This document shows, in pieces, positions 7,782 to 29,033 of a DNA stretch of 29,685 bases. Position 1 is the first letter of the stretch. Each line of letters starts with the position of its first letter. Origin of the DNA: a virus. Position numbers and translations under genes: made by a program. Location: positions 1 to 29,685 of IMG/VR virus record IMGVR_UViG_3300042316_000198. The stretch is one strand, 5' to 3'. Under the pieces are notes generated by a model. That model made no database searches, was not told where the DNA came from, and was given only the letters and a program-made list of their open reading frames with translations.

Positions 7782-8794
7782 TCGACGCTGAATTAGCCAG
7801 TTATGCGACCGTTCGACAGCTTGAATATTTGGAGGCGGCAGAAAAGTACGGGTCGCACCGCGCTGCGGCAAAAGCCCTTGGTGTAGATCAATCAGCCGTC
7901 AGCCGTTCGATAGTTGCATTAACCAAGAAGGCAGCAGCGCAAGGGCATTCTCCTGCTCCAGCCATAAACAAGAAGCATTCTCGAATAATGGTGCTACCAG
8001 ACGTGCAAGCAAGGCCGGGACTAGATTTTTCGTATCTTAAAAGGTACGGCCAGTACATGCTAGAAAAGCGGCCAGATATTGTGGTGTGCATTGGCGACTT
8101 TGCCGATATGCCCAGCTTAAGCAGCTACGACAAGGGAAAAAAGTCTTTTGAAGGCAGGCGCTACAAGCGCGACATTGAAGCCGCGCAGTTTGCAATGCAG
8201 GCGTTTTTGGGGCCAATGGAGGATTACAACAAGACCGCCAAAAAGCCGTACAAGCCGCGAATGGTGCTAACGCTTGGCAACCACGAAGACCGAATCAATC
8301 GGGCGATTAATGACGACCCCAAGTTAGACGGCGTGATGTCAGTCAATGACCTGGCCTATGGTGAATATGGCTGGGAAGTACACGAATTCCGCAAGGTAGT
8401 GATTATTGAAGGCGTGGCGTTTTCGCACTACTTTGGCACAGGGGTTATGGGCAGGCCAGCATCAAGCGCAGCAGCACAGCTACGCAAAACCAACATGAGC
8501 TGCTTTGCCGGACACAAGCAAGGTAAGGAAATCTCCTACGGCTACAAGGCTGACGGCTGCACGATCACGTCCATCATCTGCGGCTCGGCTTACGAGCATG
8601 ACGAAGATTATTTGGGGCCGCAGGGCAACAAGCACTGGCGCGGCATTTTCATGCTGCACGAAGTGAAAGATGGCGCATTCGACGAAATGCCTGTTTCGCT
8701 CTCATACATCAATGGCAAATATGGCCGCATCAATTATCAAACGCCAAGCTATTCCATGCCAACAGAGGCCGAATTAGTTGCGGGTCGGATGTAG
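7778..8794 (+). CDS. HTH-fused calcineurin-like metallophosphoesterase
   Basis: 338 aa. The N-terminus (about 11-50: RQLEYLEAAEKYGSHRAAAKALG) is a helix-turn-helix similar to the DNA-binding part of LysR-type and phage HTH domains. The rest is a metallophosphoesterase with DVQ (D75), GDFAD (106-110), GNHED (167-171), a histidine in FSHYFG (H217) and GHKQ (245-248). These are the usual two-metal ligands. The HTH-phosphoesterase fusion is a recurring phage architecture. It may act on DNA ends or nucleotides near a bound site, but the substrate cannot be read from the sequence. It overlaps the metallopeptidase gene by ATGA. Confidence 0.8.
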   Translation: MIDAELASYATVRQLEYLEAAEKYGSHRAAAKALGVDQSAVSRSIVALTKKAAAQGHSPAPAINKKHSRIMVLPDVQARPGLDFSYLKRYGQYMLEKRPDIVVCIGDFADMPSLSSYDKGKKSFEGRRYKRDIEAAQFAMQAFLGPMEDYNKTAKKPYKPRMVLTLGNHEDRINRAINDDPKLDGVMSVNDLAYGEYGWEVHEFRKVVIIEGVAFSHYFGTGVMGRPASSAAAQLRKTNMSCFAGHKQGKEISYGYKADGCTITSIICGSAYEHDEDYLGPQGNKHWRGIFMLHEVKDGAFDEMPVSLSYINGKYGRINYQTPSYSMPTEAELVAGRM

Positions 8795-8796
8795 GC

Positions 8797-8841
8797 ATGA
8801 TTTTGGGGCTAATCGTACCCAGCTTGGGGATGCTGGCATGA
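8797..8841 (+). other. 14-codon mini-ORF linking two genes
   Basis: An ATG two bases after the phosphoesterase stop opens a 14-residue hydrophobic frame (MILGLIVPSLGMLA). Its TGA overlaps the ATG at 8838 of the next gene. It may serve only to pass ribosomes across the gap, or be chance. No strong Shine-Dalgarno is present. Confidence 0.2.
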
Positions 8842-8981
8842 GCGCGTGGCTGATCGCCGTGGTCGGCTTGGTCTACGCTGGGATTGGCGTGATGCAGGCT
8901 CTCAAGGGCAATACGTCAATGGCAGTAGTTTTCACCGGCTACGCCTTTTCCAACATTGGCCTGTACCTGCTTGCCAAATGA
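8838..8981 (+). CDS. Small two-helix membrane protein
   Basis: 47 aa with two predicted membrane helices (about residues 4-20 and 28-45) joined by a short KGNTS turn. The pattern YAGIGVMQALKGN...GYAFSNIGLYL is like small phage membrane proteins I have seen in this position, but I know no function. The ATG at 8838 places the hydrophobic helix right at the N-terminus; an earlier in-frame start at 8778 would add a polar, unlikely extension. It is the last rightward gene before the attachment region. Confidence 0.6.
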   Translation: MSAWLIAVVGLVYAGIGVMQALKGNTSMAVVFTGYAFSNIGLYLLAK

Positions 8982-9024
8982 CTGCGTTTTATCCCGTTTA
9001 ATTTGCATTTAATGGGGTAATTGC

Positions 9025-9242
9025 GCTCCGCAACGGCTTTTTCATTTACGGTTCTATGCGGCCTAGAGTACTGTTTAAAACAACAGTTTTGCGGAGCAGG
9101 AATTGGGCTGCAAGCCGCATGGATGAACGAAACCTTGACCAACTTAGAAGGCTGATGCTCTATCCAACTGAGCTACGGGCAGCCGCTTAAACACTGGCTT
9201 GGATGCTATGATTTTTGATGAGTGCTGCGGAGCGCTCCGCAA
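9025..9242. repeat. GCTCCGCAA repeats, candidate integrase arm sites
   Basis: The 9-mer GCTCCGCAA occurs at 9025-9033 (+), 9089-9097 (-) and 9234-9242 (+). An 8-base inverted copy at 9226-9233 makes the third site a perfect palindrome, TGCGGAGCGCTCCGCA (9226-9241). Copies lie on both sides of the tRNA-like core, as arm-type integrase or excisionase sites do. Confidence 0.55.
9142..9183 (-). other. attP core: 5' half of a tRNA-Arg(TCT)-like gene
   Basis: Read on the minus strand, this has a tRNA acceptor 5' strand, the D-arm (AGCTCAGTTGGATAGAGC), and an anticodon arm TCAGC-CTTCTAA-GTTGG whose stem pairs fully if G-U pairs are allowed. The anticodon is TCT. After the anticodon stem the sequence no longer resembles a tRNA, so this is not a complete gene. 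Phages that integrate into tRNA genes carry such identity blocks. Carrying the 5' rather than the 3' half is less common. Confidence 0.65.
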
Positions 9243-9287
9243 ATTCAAAATCAAGATCGTTATTATCACACGGCATATAGGCATTTC

Positions 9288-10313
9288 TCACCGTGATGGT
9301 GCGACGATTTTACCTCGGTGAAGGTAGTGCTTCTGTGTCGTTCTAACGCTGGTGTGACCCAGCAAGTCAGCCGCCGCCTGTTCACCGTGAAGCTCTGCCA
9401 CATCGTCCGCAGCCTTGGCCCTCAGATCGTAAAACCAGAATGCCTCGATCTCGGCTTGCAGCGTTAAATCCTTGTCTGCCAGTGCCTGTAATGCCGCCTT
9501 TGAGCGCGCTTCTGTAAAGCCGTCTCTCAGCACTTGCTTGCTGGTCGGCATCCCTCTGGTGTTGATCGCCAGCGCAGAACTCCACACTTTGTAAGTCTTC
9601 TTTCGCGCAAGAATCCGATCAATGACGGCAGACAATTTGCCCTCGATGCGAATGCGCCGCTTCACCTTCGTCTTGCCCTGCATGACGTACAGCAGCCCGT
9701 CTTTAATGTCCGTCTCGCGCAGGCGCAGCACATCACCTGGCCTTTGCCCCAGCACCTCGGCCAAGTCCATTGCGTCCCGCGTCGGTGCGTTCGCCTGCTC
9801 CCAAACAGCCGCAAACACCCGGTCATTAATATCAACCTCACGGCTCTCAAGCGTGTGGCCCACAATGCCTTTGCATGGGTTTTCTCGCCCGGTGTAGCCT
9901 TCGCCTCGGCCAAAGTTAAAGATCGTACTGAACAGCCGTTTGAGCCTATTTGCGGTGGTCGGGCTGTCTTTCTTCCACTTGAGCATTTGCTTGATGTGCT
10001 TTGGCTCGATCAAGTCCAGTGGGGCCGGAGTTGGCAAGCCAAAGAACTCTCGCAGGTGCTTCAAGTCGCTGCGGTAAGTTGCCTGAGTGCTTTTCGCCAA
10101 CTTCACCAATTCCTCGATTTCGTACTTTTCAATCAAGTCGATGAAGGTCGTTGTCGGTGCAGCCACGCGGGAATCAGCGATGAGCGTTGACCACTGGCGC
10201 ACGGCAAGCTGGTAGTCAGAGCCTAGCGGGATCTCTTTGCGCGGCTTGCCACCAGCGTCAAAGTAATAGTAGGTGACGCCTGACTTTTGGACTCTGGCTC
10301 TGAAATGTTGCAT
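9288..10313 (-). CDS. int: Tyrosine recombinase integrase
   Basis: 341 aa. The catalytic set of phage integrases is visible: Arg191 in EVLGQRPGDVLRL, a Lys in the GKTKVKRR beta-hairpin (about 214-218), the second-Arg box as YDLR (Tyr295 in place of the usual His, Arg298), His320 in LLGHTS and the nucleophile Tyr330 in KHYLH. Residues about 55-140 form the core-binding SAM-like domain, with a short N-terminal arm-binding part. The ATG at 10313 overlaps the TAA of the upstream DUF4224 gene by one base, which fixes the start. It should recombine attP (just downstream) with a host tRNA gene. Confidence 0.93.
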   Translation of the reverse strand: MQHFRARVQKSGVTYYYFDAGGKPRKEIPLGSDYQLAVRQWSTLIADSRVAAPTTTFIDLIEKYEIEELVKLAKSTQATYRSDLKHLREFFGLPTPAPLDLIEPKHIKQMLKWKKDSPTTANRLKRLFSTIFNFGRGEGYTGRENPCKGIVGHTLESREVDINDRVFAAVWEQANAPTRDAMDLAEVLGQRPGDVLRLRETDIKDGLLYVMQGKTKVKRRIRIEGKLSAVIDRILARKKTYKVWSSALAINTRGMPTSKQVLRDGFTEARSKAALQALADKDLTLQAEIEAFWFYDLRAKAADDVAELHGEQAAADLLGHTSVRTTQKHYLHRGKIVAPSR

Positions 10314-10537
10314 TAGGCTCTCGCTGATTCCCAAGTGGTCGGCTCGGCTATTTTGGATGTGCCGCCTTCGATTGTTGCTCTTGCAACGATGGCTCGTCCA
10401 GCCATATTTAGATAAAACGGAATGCGCATAGCCTTGAGTGCAGCAGCTTGGCACTGGCCGCGAGTCTTTCCGGCACGGCCAATCTTCACGCCGGTCAACT
10501 CAGCTAACTCATTCGGCTGTAAAAACATGGGTGTCAT
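10313..10537 (-). CDS. DUF4224-type small DNA-binding / excisionase-like protein
   Basis: 74 aa. The pattern FLQPNELAELTGVK...Q..ALKAMRIPFYLNMAGRAIVARATIEG matches the DUF4224 family, small winged-helix-like proteins often encoded directly before phage integrases. Position and family suggest a directionality factor or integrase partner, not proven here. AAGGAG lies five bases before the ATG at 10537. The stop shares one base with the integrase start, so the two are translationally coupled. Confidence 0.75.
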   Translation of the reverse strand: MTPMFLQPNELAELTGVKIGRAGKTRGQCQAAALKAMRIPFYLNMAGRAIVARATIEGGTSKIAEPTTWESARA

Positions 10538-12319: not shown

Positions 12320-12420
12320 GTTCGGCTTTCAAAAAGTTCGCTTACTCGCTGCACTGGATAACCAGCATCCGCTTTCGGCGGTAAAAATTCGGCAGTGGCC
12401 TACTACAACCAGCCCAGCAC
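12299..12420. repeat. 12-bp inverted repeat enclosing small hairpins
   Basis: GTGCTGGGCTGG (12299-12310) is exactly complementary to CCAGCCCAGCAC (12409-12420). The enclosed 98 bases can also form two short local hairpins on the minus strand (CCGC-CGAAA-GCGG and CTGG-TTAT-CCAG). In the leftward transcript this would make a closed multi-branch RNA just before or over the start at 12319. The region between the genes at 12319 and 12470 holds no other gene I can support. Confidence 0.4.
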
Positions 12421-12469
12421 GTTGAATTAAATGGAAGCCGTGCAAGGCCGTTACTGCCTGAAAACTAGA

Positions 12470-12736
12470 TCAAAAAGGCATGTCTTGGTCCATATCGTCA
12501 AACCCGCTGGACACGGCTTGGCGCTGAACTGGTGCGGGGGCGGCGGCTTGCTTTGGCTTGCCTGACAAGCTCATGAACTTTTCCGCTGGGTTACTGGCCT
12601 TTGGCTTGATCCAGCCGCTGATTTCAAACAGCACGCCATTCAACATAATGTCGCCTCGGTAATCTGGACGGGCTGAGTTATCGCCTTTGTCGTTCTTGAA
12701 AAGTGATCCGCTGCCGTCTTTGTGTTCGTATGCCAT
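12470..12736 (-). CDS. Putative single-stranded-DNA-binding protein
   Basis: 88 aa. The N-terminus (YEHKDGSGSLFKNDKG) and the central DYRGDIMLNGVLFEISGWIK look like a small beta-barrel (OB-like) domain. A low-complexity linker follows, and the acidic tip DDMDQDMPF resembles the C-terminal DDDIPF tip of bacterial SSB, which binds partner proteins. It lies between exonuclease and accessory genes in a recombination cluster, which fits ssDNA handling. It is not a canonical Ssb by length. Confidence 0.6.
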   Translation of the reverse strand: MAYEHKDGSGSLFKNDKGDNSARPDYRGDIMLNGVLFEISGWIKPKASNPAEKFMSLSGKPKQAAAPAPVQRQAVSSGFDDMDQDMPF

Positions 12737-13351
12737 TTATGCCTTTAGGTTGTTTAATTTCTCAACCGTCGCAGCTACTTCCTGCAAAAACTCGGTCACT
12801 TGCTTTTCCAAATCTGCAATCACCGCTGCGTCTTTAGGGACGCGGGCAACAAAGAGTTGGAGATGCTCTGGGAAACGTGGGTCAAAGCTAACGAAGTCGC
12901 ACCACTGGCGACCTGTACAAGCCATTTGCCACATCATTTGCGTGATGTATTTGCCGTCTGGCTTGCCCAACAACAGTGTTTTGGCGTGAGTCGCTGAGTT
13001 GGGACACTTGATCTCAATCAGACCGTCAGCGTCAATCAGCCCGTCAGGACTTGCGCCGCACAGCTCGATGGATGGGTGGGAAATCATGGCGACTTCTTCA
13101 ACCATTGCGCCGGTCTTTGCTTCGTAAGCAGCGCGTGCCTTTGGCTCGGTGTCAGTTCCCCATTGCATTGCGCCGTTGGTAAATGACTCCTGGCGCTGGC
13201 CGGTCAATCGCTCCAAAGCCAACTCAACGCAATAACCCTCCCGTGAGGCACTAACGCCGGTCTTTGTCTTGGCGATTACATCCGCAACGCGGGAAGCTGT
13301 GACCTTTCCCAGCCGCTGCAAAAACCACTCCGGTGAACCTTGGGAAATCAT
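12737..13351 (-). CDS. YqaJ-type phage recombination exonuclease
   Basis: 204 aa. The lambda-exonuclease/YqaJ fold is marked by SPEWFLQRLGKVTASR near the start, GTDTEPKARAAYE (E69 region) and the catalytic block SPDG (D103)...LIEIKCP (E113, K115). It should digest one strand of duplex DNA from ends to give 3' overhangs for the ERF annealase encoded next to it. The stop is directly followed by the SSB-like gene, and the start overlaps the ERF gene by ATGA, so the three are made together. Confidence 0.9.
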   Translation of the reverse strand: MISQGSPEWFLQRLGKVTASRVADVIAKTKTGVSASREGYCVELALERLTGQRQESFTNGAMQWGTDTEPKARAAYEAKTGAMVEEVAMISHPSIELCGASPDGLIDADGLIEIKCPNSATHAKTLLLGKPDGKYITQMMWQMACTGRQWCDFVSFDPRFPEHLQLFVARVPKDAAVIADLEKQVTEFLQEVAATVEKLNNLKA

Positions 13352-13956
13352 GCCTCCACCGACATTTCATTGAGAAACGCCTTGTGATTAGTTGCAGCAT
13401 GTTTTAGTGCGTTGTAGTCAGGCCCACCAGAAACAAACTTGGTAACTTCAGACTTCCACAATGCCGTCAGTTCGTCTTGATTTTTGGCCTTGGTGATAAT
13501 TTTGATGGAATCAGCCAGTGCATAAACCTCAACCTTTGGGCCGCTGGATTTTGCTTTGCGTGCAGCCTCTCCGTCGTCATCTTCACCAGCGATCCCGCAA
13601 GCCGTCATTAGGCTGTAACGACGCGCATAGGTCAGGGCGCTGCCGTACCCCTGTGGGTCTTGCTTGGCGGCTGGAACGTGCAACTTACCAAAGCGCAGGG
13701 ACTCACCACATTCATGCAACAAGACCGTCTCAATGGTCACGCCTGTAGCGTCCTCTGAGGTCTCTTGGAACACGGCTATACCGTTGCTCAAGAAGGATTC
13801 ATTAACCGCGTCAAGGCAAGCGCCAAGGTCTGCATAACGGTTCTTGAAGTGGTCGTTCTTGCTGTTTTTAATGGCTGGCGAGAACTCGCGCTTTGCCTTG
13901 ATGAAAGCGGCTGAAATTGTTTTCATAATTTTGATCTCATTCAGTGGGTTATTCAT
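13348..13956 (-). CDS. erf: ERF-family single-strand annealing protein
   Basis: 202 aa. The ERF signature is present: FIKAKREFSPAIKNSKNDHFKNRYADLG near the N-terminus, then YGSALTYARRYSLMTACGI with the following acidic GEDDDGE. It should anneal complementary single strands and promote phage recombination or circularisation with the adjacent exonuclease. TAGGAG lies seven bases before ATG 13956, which decides the start; an earlier in-frame start would overlap the membrane gene. An internal ATG at 13926 is a weaker option. Confidence 0.9.
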   Translation of the reverse strand: MNNPLNEIKIMKTISAAFIKAKREFSPAIKNSKNDHFKNRYADLGACLDAVNESFLSNGIAVFQETSEDATGVTIETVLLHECGESLRFGKLHVPAAKQDPQGYGSALTYARRYSLMTACGIAGEDDDGEAARKAKSSGPKVEVYALADSIKIITKAKNQDELTALWKSEVTKFVSGGPDYNALKHAATNHKAFLNEMSVEA

Positions 13957-13966
13957 GTTGTTGCTC

Positions 13967-14119
13967 CTAGCGAAACCAGATGTAGAAGCCGTGGAGGATG
14001 CCAATCGGAAAGACGATGGCCCCGGCGATCAAGAAGCCCCACAAGCCTTCTGAAAAGCAAGTGAAGATGTGCGTCAGCCAAGCCACGAAAAGGGCAAAGC
14101 CAATGAGGCCGCCGATCAT
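13967..14119 (-). CDS. Small two-helix membrane protein (50 aa)
   Basis: The ATG at 14119 overlaps the TGA of the upstream 50-aa gene. Residues about 2-16 and 26-49 are hydrophobic, separated by THIFTCFSEGLW. The second half (WGFLIAGAIVFPIGILHGFYIW) is a pattern I recognise from small phage membrane proteins of the early region, function unknown. The TAG at 13967 is 11 bases from the ERF start, and the ERF Shine-Dalgarno overlaps this stop. Confidence 0.68.
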   Translation of the reverse strand: MIGGLIGFALFVAWLTHIFTCFSEGLWGFLIAGAIVFPIGILHGFYIWFR

Positions 14120-20230: not shown

Positions 20231-20656
20231 ATGAGCAAGCTAACCCTGACGCTCATCAACGAAGTGCAAGGCCATGCCGCATTAAAAACAATCTGGATGC
20301 ACGCCAAGGCCAACTTAAACGCAGGTCGCAGGATGGTGGTCAGCCTCATGCCTGAGACGCGCACCCAACGGCAAAACCGATTGATGTGGCCTATCTTGTC
20401 CGTTTTCAGTAAGCAACTGGTGTGGCCGGTCGATGGCCGCATGGTGTCGATGGATGAGGATGACTGGAAGGATGTGCTGAGTGCGGCCTTTAAGGGTGAG
20501 TCTGTCCGTCTGGCAATGGGTCTGAATGGCGGCGTGGTCATGTTGGGCCAGCGCACCAGCAAATTCACCAAGGCTCAGTTTGCTGAGTGGATTGAATTCT
20601 TGTACGCCACAGCAGCAGACAGGGACGTAAAGCTACCGGCTTGGAGTGAGGAATGA
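20231..20656 (+). CDS. ninB: NinB / Orf-family recombination mediator
   Basis: 141 aa, the usual size. RTQRQNRLMWPILSVFSKQLVWP, MDEDDWKDVLSAAF and QFAEWIEFLYATAAD are the conserved blocks of NinB (Orf), which binds single-stranded DNA and loads annealing protein in lambda-type recombination. It complements the ERF-exonuclease pair on the other arm. It overlaps the next gene by ATGA. Confidence 0.9.
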   Translation: MSKLTLTLINEVQGHAALKTIWMHAKANLNAGRRMVVSLMPETRTQRQNRLMWPILSVFSKQLVWPVDGRMVSMDEDDWKDVLSAAFKGESVRLAMGLNGGVVMLGQRTSKFTKAQFAEWIEFLYATAADRDVKLPAWSEE

Positions 20657-28992: not shown

Positions 28993-29012
28993 TCCCCATT
29001 CTTTTAACTAAA

Positions 29013-29033
29013 CGCAGTGATTGCGCAGGGAGG
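29013..29033 (+). promoter_or_regulatory. CGCA/TGCG hairpin plus Shine-Dalgarno
   Basis: CGCA (29013-29016), loop GTGAT and TGCG (29022-29025), then AGGGAGG (29027-29033), five bases... actually four bases before the ATG at 29038. The surrounding sequence closely matches 88-117. Confidence 0.6.

Follow-up and report, generated by a model that had tools for sequence, protein, structure and literature searches.

The 5′ half of a tRNA-Arg(TCT) gene in the probable attachment site of a temperate phage and in its integrated relatives

The window, that is the whole stretch of 29,685 nucleotides analyzed here, in all likelihood contains the attP of a temperate phage. The tyrosine integrase of this phage would be directed, with reversed polarity, at the anticodon stem-loop of the host tRNA-Arg(TCT) gene, and the P arm is inferred to bring the promoter. 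By comparison with relatives, this attP would consist of tRNA nucleotides 1 to 40 between two arms of integrase-type repeats; upon integration, the host would keep a 5′-half remnant beside the P′ arm, and the complete gene, preceded by the P arm, would be composed of a 5′ half from the phage and a 3′ half from the host. Crossover probably takes place in the anticodon loop, sequence identity ending just past it, and a promoter in the P arm would then transcribe the rebuilt tRNA. tRNA genes are favorite targets of phages, and the retention of the host promoter is the usual explanation for phages carrying the 3′ half. The relevant features of the window are:

8982 to 9142, minus strand: P′ arm, which adjoins the 5′-half remnant in integrated relatives
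9089 to 9097, minus strand: GCTCCGCAA in the P′ arm, with its reverse complement at 9025 to 9033
9143 to 9182, minus strand: attP core, nucleotides 1 to 40 (5′ half) of tRNA-Arg(TCT), an exact 40-nt match to tRNA-Arg(TCT) genes
9183 to 9287, minus strand: P arm, 105 nt from the int stop codon to tRNA nucleotide 1, found upstream of the rebuilt tRNA in integrated relatives
9226 to 9241, strand not assigned: perfect 16-bp palindrome TGCGGAGCGCTCCGCA in the window sequence, probably two paired integrase arm-type sites; the arms of loci L077, L073 and L071 have it as well
9262 to 9291, minus strand: candidate promoter GTGAGA-18-GATAAT, which overlaps the int stop codon and has a TG ahead of its -10; its -10-like hexamer is shared across arms
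9288 to 10313, minus strand: tyrosine integrase (PHROG 1, Pfam PF00589), 341 aa from the start common to relatives
10313 to 10537, minus strand: excisionase-like protein (DUF4224; PHROGs 8896 and 4764, Pfam PF13986)

The site occupies the gap from 8982 to 9287, flanked by an ORF on the plus strand (8778 to 8981) and by the integrase ORF on the minus strand, which ends at 9288; attP is thereby placed between the integrase gene and the lysis-side genes, amid integrase arm-type repeats and directly beside a tyrosine recombinase gene. The integrase start was picked by alignment, the longest ORF extending to 10454, and relatives of the excisionase adjoin int in 9 of the 12 compared loci. The core comprises the 5′ acceptor strand, the D arm, the anticodon stem and loop, and the first base of the 3′ stem, and the window diverges from tRNA-Arg(TCT) past tRNA nucleotide 40. 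The first-pass annotation had described a match that runs from the acceptor strand into the anticodon arm and then departs, which proved exact over nucleotides 1 to 40: the core occurs with zero mismatches in three genomes (G003, G004 and G419), with a complete tRNA-Arg(TCT) called at each. No tRNA is called in the window by ARAGORN or by Rfam at its gathering threshold.

Arm repeats bind integrase. Exact GCTCCGCAA words occur three times in the window, all within 9025 to 9242, two of them on the P′ side and one inside the palindrome; shuffles of the whole window contain a mean of 0.73 such words, and 3 of 100 shuffles reach three. Similar repeats lie beside other integrases of the same family, and the repeats of the window are therefore read as putative arm-type sites. 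The 12-bp center of the palindrome was the search pattern behind most of the aligned arms, and its presence in 9 of 12 arms is due to selection, because the pattern demanded the palindrome or its center; the arms of L077, L073 and L071 are free of this selection, these loci having been found by the core alone. Across the 12 P arms, the palindrome center ends 35, 44 to 46 or 58 nt ahead of tRNA nucleotide 1.

A genome scan with the integrases of the window and of viral contig L003 gave 61 loci, and the five with the closest integrases (L010 to L014) belong to two Polaromonas, two Xylophilus and one Comamonas genome, Polaromonas and Xylophilus being placed in the Burkholderiales. Each of these genomes contains exactly two copies of the core at up to 3 mismatches. 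In all five, a palindromic P arm precedes the complete tRNA-Arg(TCT) that forms one copy, and the second copy consists of a 5′ half, preceded by host DNA and followed by a P′ arm; that is, the element bears the 5′ part of the gene and the 5′ fragment keeps the host's upstream DNA. The two copies are identical across the core (40 of 40 nt), their 40 nt of upstream sequence agree at 11, 6, 11, 6 and 16 positions, and joining the host 5′ flank to the 3′ half yields a tRNA-Arg(TCT) in every one of the five genomes. Further, two genomes have remnant and intact pairs with the same reversed polarity at tRNA-Gly(CCC) (L016 and L017). The DNA upstream of the rebuilt tRNA is that of the phage in all seven genomes (five Arg(TCT), two Gly(CCC)), as had been proposed from the window alone. 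A host tRNA-Arg(TCT) with extended identity was sought and found at 40 of 40 nt, and the attL/attR pairs sought in related prophages are present as tRNA halves bounding the elements in the five closest genomes and in the two tRNA-Gly(CCC) genomes; the two outcomes named beforehand as contrary to the proposal, no host tRNA or prophages bounded elsewhere, were not encountered. Beyond the rebuilt tRNA-Gly of L016, a piece of 53 integrase residues (12386 to 12544, minus strand) is 72% identical to the window integrase and is perhaps what remains of a second element.

The comparison rests on relatives, the window's own host and lysogen not having been found. The ends of the Xylophilus elements are 44.5 and 43.7 kb apart; in G002 and G005, they fall on different contigs, and in G001 they are about 93 kb apart, which is plausible only if the contig is circular. 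Ten ORFs were scanned in the 44.5-kb interval of X. ampelinus, among them one terminase and one tape-measure protein, and a PEP carboxylase gene follows beyond the interval. Among 25 genomes (the X. ampelinus relatives set), 11 contain the core within 2 mismatches, two lysogens twice each and nine others once. All nine single copies are called as tRNA-Arg(TCT), the copy of L111 being cut by a contig end, and neither GCGGAGC nor GCTCCGC occurs within 300 nt upstream of any of them. A tRNA-Pro(TGG) gene lies just upstream on the same strand in six of these nine genomes; in Polaromonas CG9_12, tRNA-Pro stays beside the remnant half and the rebuilt tRNA-Arg is elsewhere. The palindrome together with the core was present in 4 of 399 genomes (a sample of the family), two of which are the known lysogens.

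The same arrangement of palindrome and half-tRNA is carried by four viral contigs (L003, L005, L008 and L009), in the order palindrome, 35 to 46 nt, half-tRNA and a P′ arm with GCTCCG and CGGAGC words. DNA-pattern searches located these contigs; in a scan of viral contigs with the window integrase as a single protein, 5 stretches fit a pattern and none of the five was confirmed. As judged from sequence, the half-tRNA att arrangement is no chance match, being repeated in four further viral contigs and five host genomes. The exact core is present in six viral loci. Three candidates (L002, L004 and L007) were dropped, their exact core belonging to complete tRNA-Arg(TCT) genes, and L006 was excluded from the family, its half-tRNA lying beside a different integrase and lacking the palindrome; this 5′ half of tRNA-Arg(TCT) (L006, 9958 to 9991, minus strand) is about 500 nt downstream of the different integrase fragment (PF00589) and is perhaps an independent case of the same polarity.

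Polarity was followed on a quick maximum-likelihood tree of 62 of 65 integrases (the 61 scan loci plus the window, L003, L008 and L009, with L065, L069 and L070 omitted), in which seven members are unlabeled (L042, L045, L053, L054, L059, L060 and L068) and the long branches L061 and L063 join. The labels come mostly from the int-side end only, and for L047, L058, L063 and L067 they were read from remnants that are short or incomplete. One group of 12 (SH-aLRT 100) takes in all 11 five-prime members. Its twelfth member, L015, has the usual polarity at tRNA-Gly(CCC), where two 3′-half copies, one within a complete gene, are separated by 13.8 kb, and its sisters L016 and L017 have reversed polarity at the same tRNA. 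The polarity label changes twice on the tree, one change being L015 nested among 5′-half members, where shuffled labels change 10.3 times on average and 0 of 500 shuffles are as low. The conservation of reversed polarity by one integrase clade, with one usual-polarity member nested inside, appears to be new. An ARAGORN reading of L027 as a reversed tRNA-Asn case was rejected; the locus reads as a 3′-half remnant and was labeled as usual polarity. L068 was left unlabeled: its 5′ remnant diverges ahead of the anticodon loop, and another contig contains a tRNA-Arg(CCT) with upstream GCGGAGC repeats. In a Methylotenera genome, a tRNA-Arg(CCT) with two GCGGAGC repeats upstream of its 5′ end (L097, about position 1500, plus strand) is perhaps another reversed-polarity site.

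Moreover, the att cassette occurs either way round relative to int, which also looks new. In the window, L011, L012 and L014, it is the P arm that adjoins int, and in L013 a cargo gene separates the two; the P′ arm faces int in L003, L005, L008, L009 and L010, and the arm facing int changes 13 times on the tree, a count made without a shuffle control. The cargo gene between int and the att arm, the gene after int in L013 (Xylophilus Leaf220 prophage; L080, 632 to 1363, plus strand), encodes a protein with a TRADD-N-associated transmembrane domain (PF20712) and is perhaps a lysogenic defense gene.

The promoter for the rebuilt tRNA is likely, but not proven, to be supplied by the phage P arm. 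A -10-like hexamer (TATAAT-like with at most one mismatch, A2 and T6 fixed) was sought in the stretch 12 to 45 nt upstream of the palindrome and is present in 10 of 12 P arms, being absent from those of L005 and L008; dinucleotide shuffles give a mean of 3.2 and a maximum of 8, with 0 of 1000 reaching 10, odds that are too favorable because the arms are related. The corresponding counts are 1 of 12 sixty nt further up, 0 of 5 in P′ arms and 6 of 12 on the reverse strand. Complete two-box sigma-70 sites, scored with generally known promoter weights, are weak: 2 of 14 arms have p values of 0.05 or below, the Stouffer z is 2.0, and the window has a p value of 0.24. The earlier suggestion that the phage might have to supply the promoter is thus favored by the shared hexamer, but not by the whole-promoter scores. 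Read by eye, a hexamer, TAGAAT in L016 and TAAAAT in L017, lies nine nt ahead of the rebuilt gene in the phage arm of the tRNA-Gly(CCC) relatives, and the same hexamer recurs in host DNA, 9 to 10 nt ahead of the Gly remnant half; the top-scoring promoter site of L017 differs from its eye-read TAAAAT near the tRNA.

These weak scores would favor a rather unlikely alternative, in which the phage gives the 5′ half and the tRNA is expressed by read-through from int or the lysis genes, without a promoter of its own in the arm. In keeping with it, int points at the tRNA from about 84 to 142 nt away in the window, L011, L012 and L014, and in L005 the nearest long upstream ORF is codirectional with the tRNA. 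However, L003 has ORFs upstream of the arm that are directed away from the tRNA, int is on the opposite side in L003, L005, L008, L009 and L010, and the arm retains a -10-like hexamer in either layout, as it does behind the cargo gene in L013/L080. The candidate promoter would also read across the half into P′, and in L003 then antisense into int; a highly improbable reading is accordingly that the free phage, too, transcribes the half, into a regulatory 5′-tRNA-half RNA, for example one antisense to int in the opposite layout, whereas integration alone explains the conservation of the half.

Taken by itself, the window record has only an unoccupied site, which would suit a half-tRNA that is a relic or a captured piece without a present role in integration. 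There is next to no likelihood of this, however, as the same site is found in four other viral contigs, remnant and intact pairs are found in seven genomes, and intact integrase and excisionase ORFs lie beside the half-tRNA. The preferred reading, integration with a phage-supplied P arm promoter, can be extended to a mobile module of promoter plus half-tRNA that puts the host's only AGA-decoding tRNA under phage control, with a tRNA turn-down and a host-range filter; this extension is quite unlikely. In the Arg arms, the palindromic integrase site lies between the candidate promoter and the tRNA, and integrase binding at induction could lower tRNA levels, but the Gly relatives have their arm repeats upstream of the -10-like hexamer. 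The acceptor-strand match between phage half and host half would filter the host range of lysogeny.

The carried half tracks the host's own half. Acceptor pairing is 7 of 7 in all five rebuilt tRNAs; the half of the window would pair at 7 of 7 positions with three of the five hosts, at 6 of 7 with Polaromonas CG9_12 and at 3 of 7 with Comamonas, and when it is joined to the Comamonas 3′ half, ARAGORN no longer calls a tRNA. A TCT-anticodon pattern, which is exact and could miss an unusual tRNA, has one match per genome, the rebuilt tRNA, in the five genomes, two of which are MAGs. Searched backward as a control, the pattern has one match each in G001 and G005, so that a chance match is possible; all five real matches are the rebuilt tRNA. 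These counts suggest, at the sequence level, that the rebuilt tRNA-Arg(TCT) gene is not redundant in the host, and with this gene apparently the only source of tRNA-Arg(UCU) in the cell, the phage half may be kept identical to the host half, down to the acceptor strand, which has to pair with the host 3′ half. No second tRNA of this kind appears to accompany the one rebuilt on phage DNA in the five genomes examined; if so, lysogeny would exchange the upstream control of what is probably an essential tRNA and make host range depend on tRNA compatibility. The clade makes the exception to the 3′-half rule testable, polarity having changed within one integrase family.

The 5′-half class of integrative elements is already known and uncommon. 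Of the 3919 islands in Islander, 3760 have a 3′ fragment and 159 a 5′ fragment (PMC4383910); elements that leave a 5′ tDNA fragment were described by Zhao and Williams (2002), as cited in PMC6563490, a thaumarchaeal survey whose accessible portion gives 5′-distal recombination as considerably less frequent. As in the Islander 5′-fragment islands, the element bears the 5′ part of the tRNA gene, and an intact gene and a 5′ fragment mark its ends; the available portion of that account names no promoter, whereas the present case has one clade, arm repeats and a candidate promoter. According to a review, exceptions to the retention of the original promoter by a recombinant bacterial tRNA are very few; the archaeal pTN3 case is also described there (PMC8371274). 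The pTN3-like integrases are archaeal; in the present phages, the candidate promoter belongs to the att arm, downstream of int, and accompanies this arm in the layouts that have int on the opposite side. The tRNA-dependent lysogeny of actinobacteriophages, in the available text of PMC10865867, is alike in that an essential tRNA gene is targeted and a phage-supplied tRNA sequence is needed; in those phages, the core is short and does not rebuild the tRNA, an entire tRNA gene is brought by the phage, and one attP is inverted relative to the rest of the genome. In contrast, the 40-nt core here rebuilds the tRNA and the window has no whole tRNA gene, which sets it apart from that combination of short core and complete phage gene. 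The best matches of the integrase among named phages are Pseudomonas phages F10 and PA8 (37 to 38% identity over 99% of the query). Related integrases are found in Pseudomonas prophages that lie at tRNA-Leu(TAA) with similar TTGCGGACC-type repeats; the phage there faces the tRNA 3′ end, and the host promoter would therefore be kept. No report of this phage group was found in the open-licence literature, which is not a claim of absence.

The window record, a linear contig of viral origin, has portal and capsid genes of the SU10 type, and megablast of positions 1 to 24000 against named phages gave no match. Its attP is uninterrupted and internal, so that the earlier description of the site as unoccupied stands, but the conclusion of a free or circular genome is too strong, as the same appearance would be expected of linear virion DNA. 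A circular junction was sought and not found, the record being classed as linear, without end repeats or a terminal direct repeat; its sequence fits linear virion DNA and a circle equally. When 22 window proteins were compared with the 12 loci, most of which span only about 10 kb beside int, clear relatives were found for the integrase and excisionase only, plus one 29-residue match to L009, and the module therefore appears common to otherwise different phages. The possession of the same int/att module by a podovirus-type and a long-tailed phage looks new. The window also has recombination genes at 12737 to 14004 (minus strand) and 20231 to 20656 (plus strand), namely a YqaJ-type exonuclease, an ERF annealing protein and NinB. 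Two copies of the 14-mer CTAAACGCAGTGAT are present, at 87 to 100 and 29008 to 29021, each just upstream of an ORF of the structural half; at least two matches at up to 2 mismatches arise in 2 of 100 shuffles, and the 14-mer is possibly a late control element.
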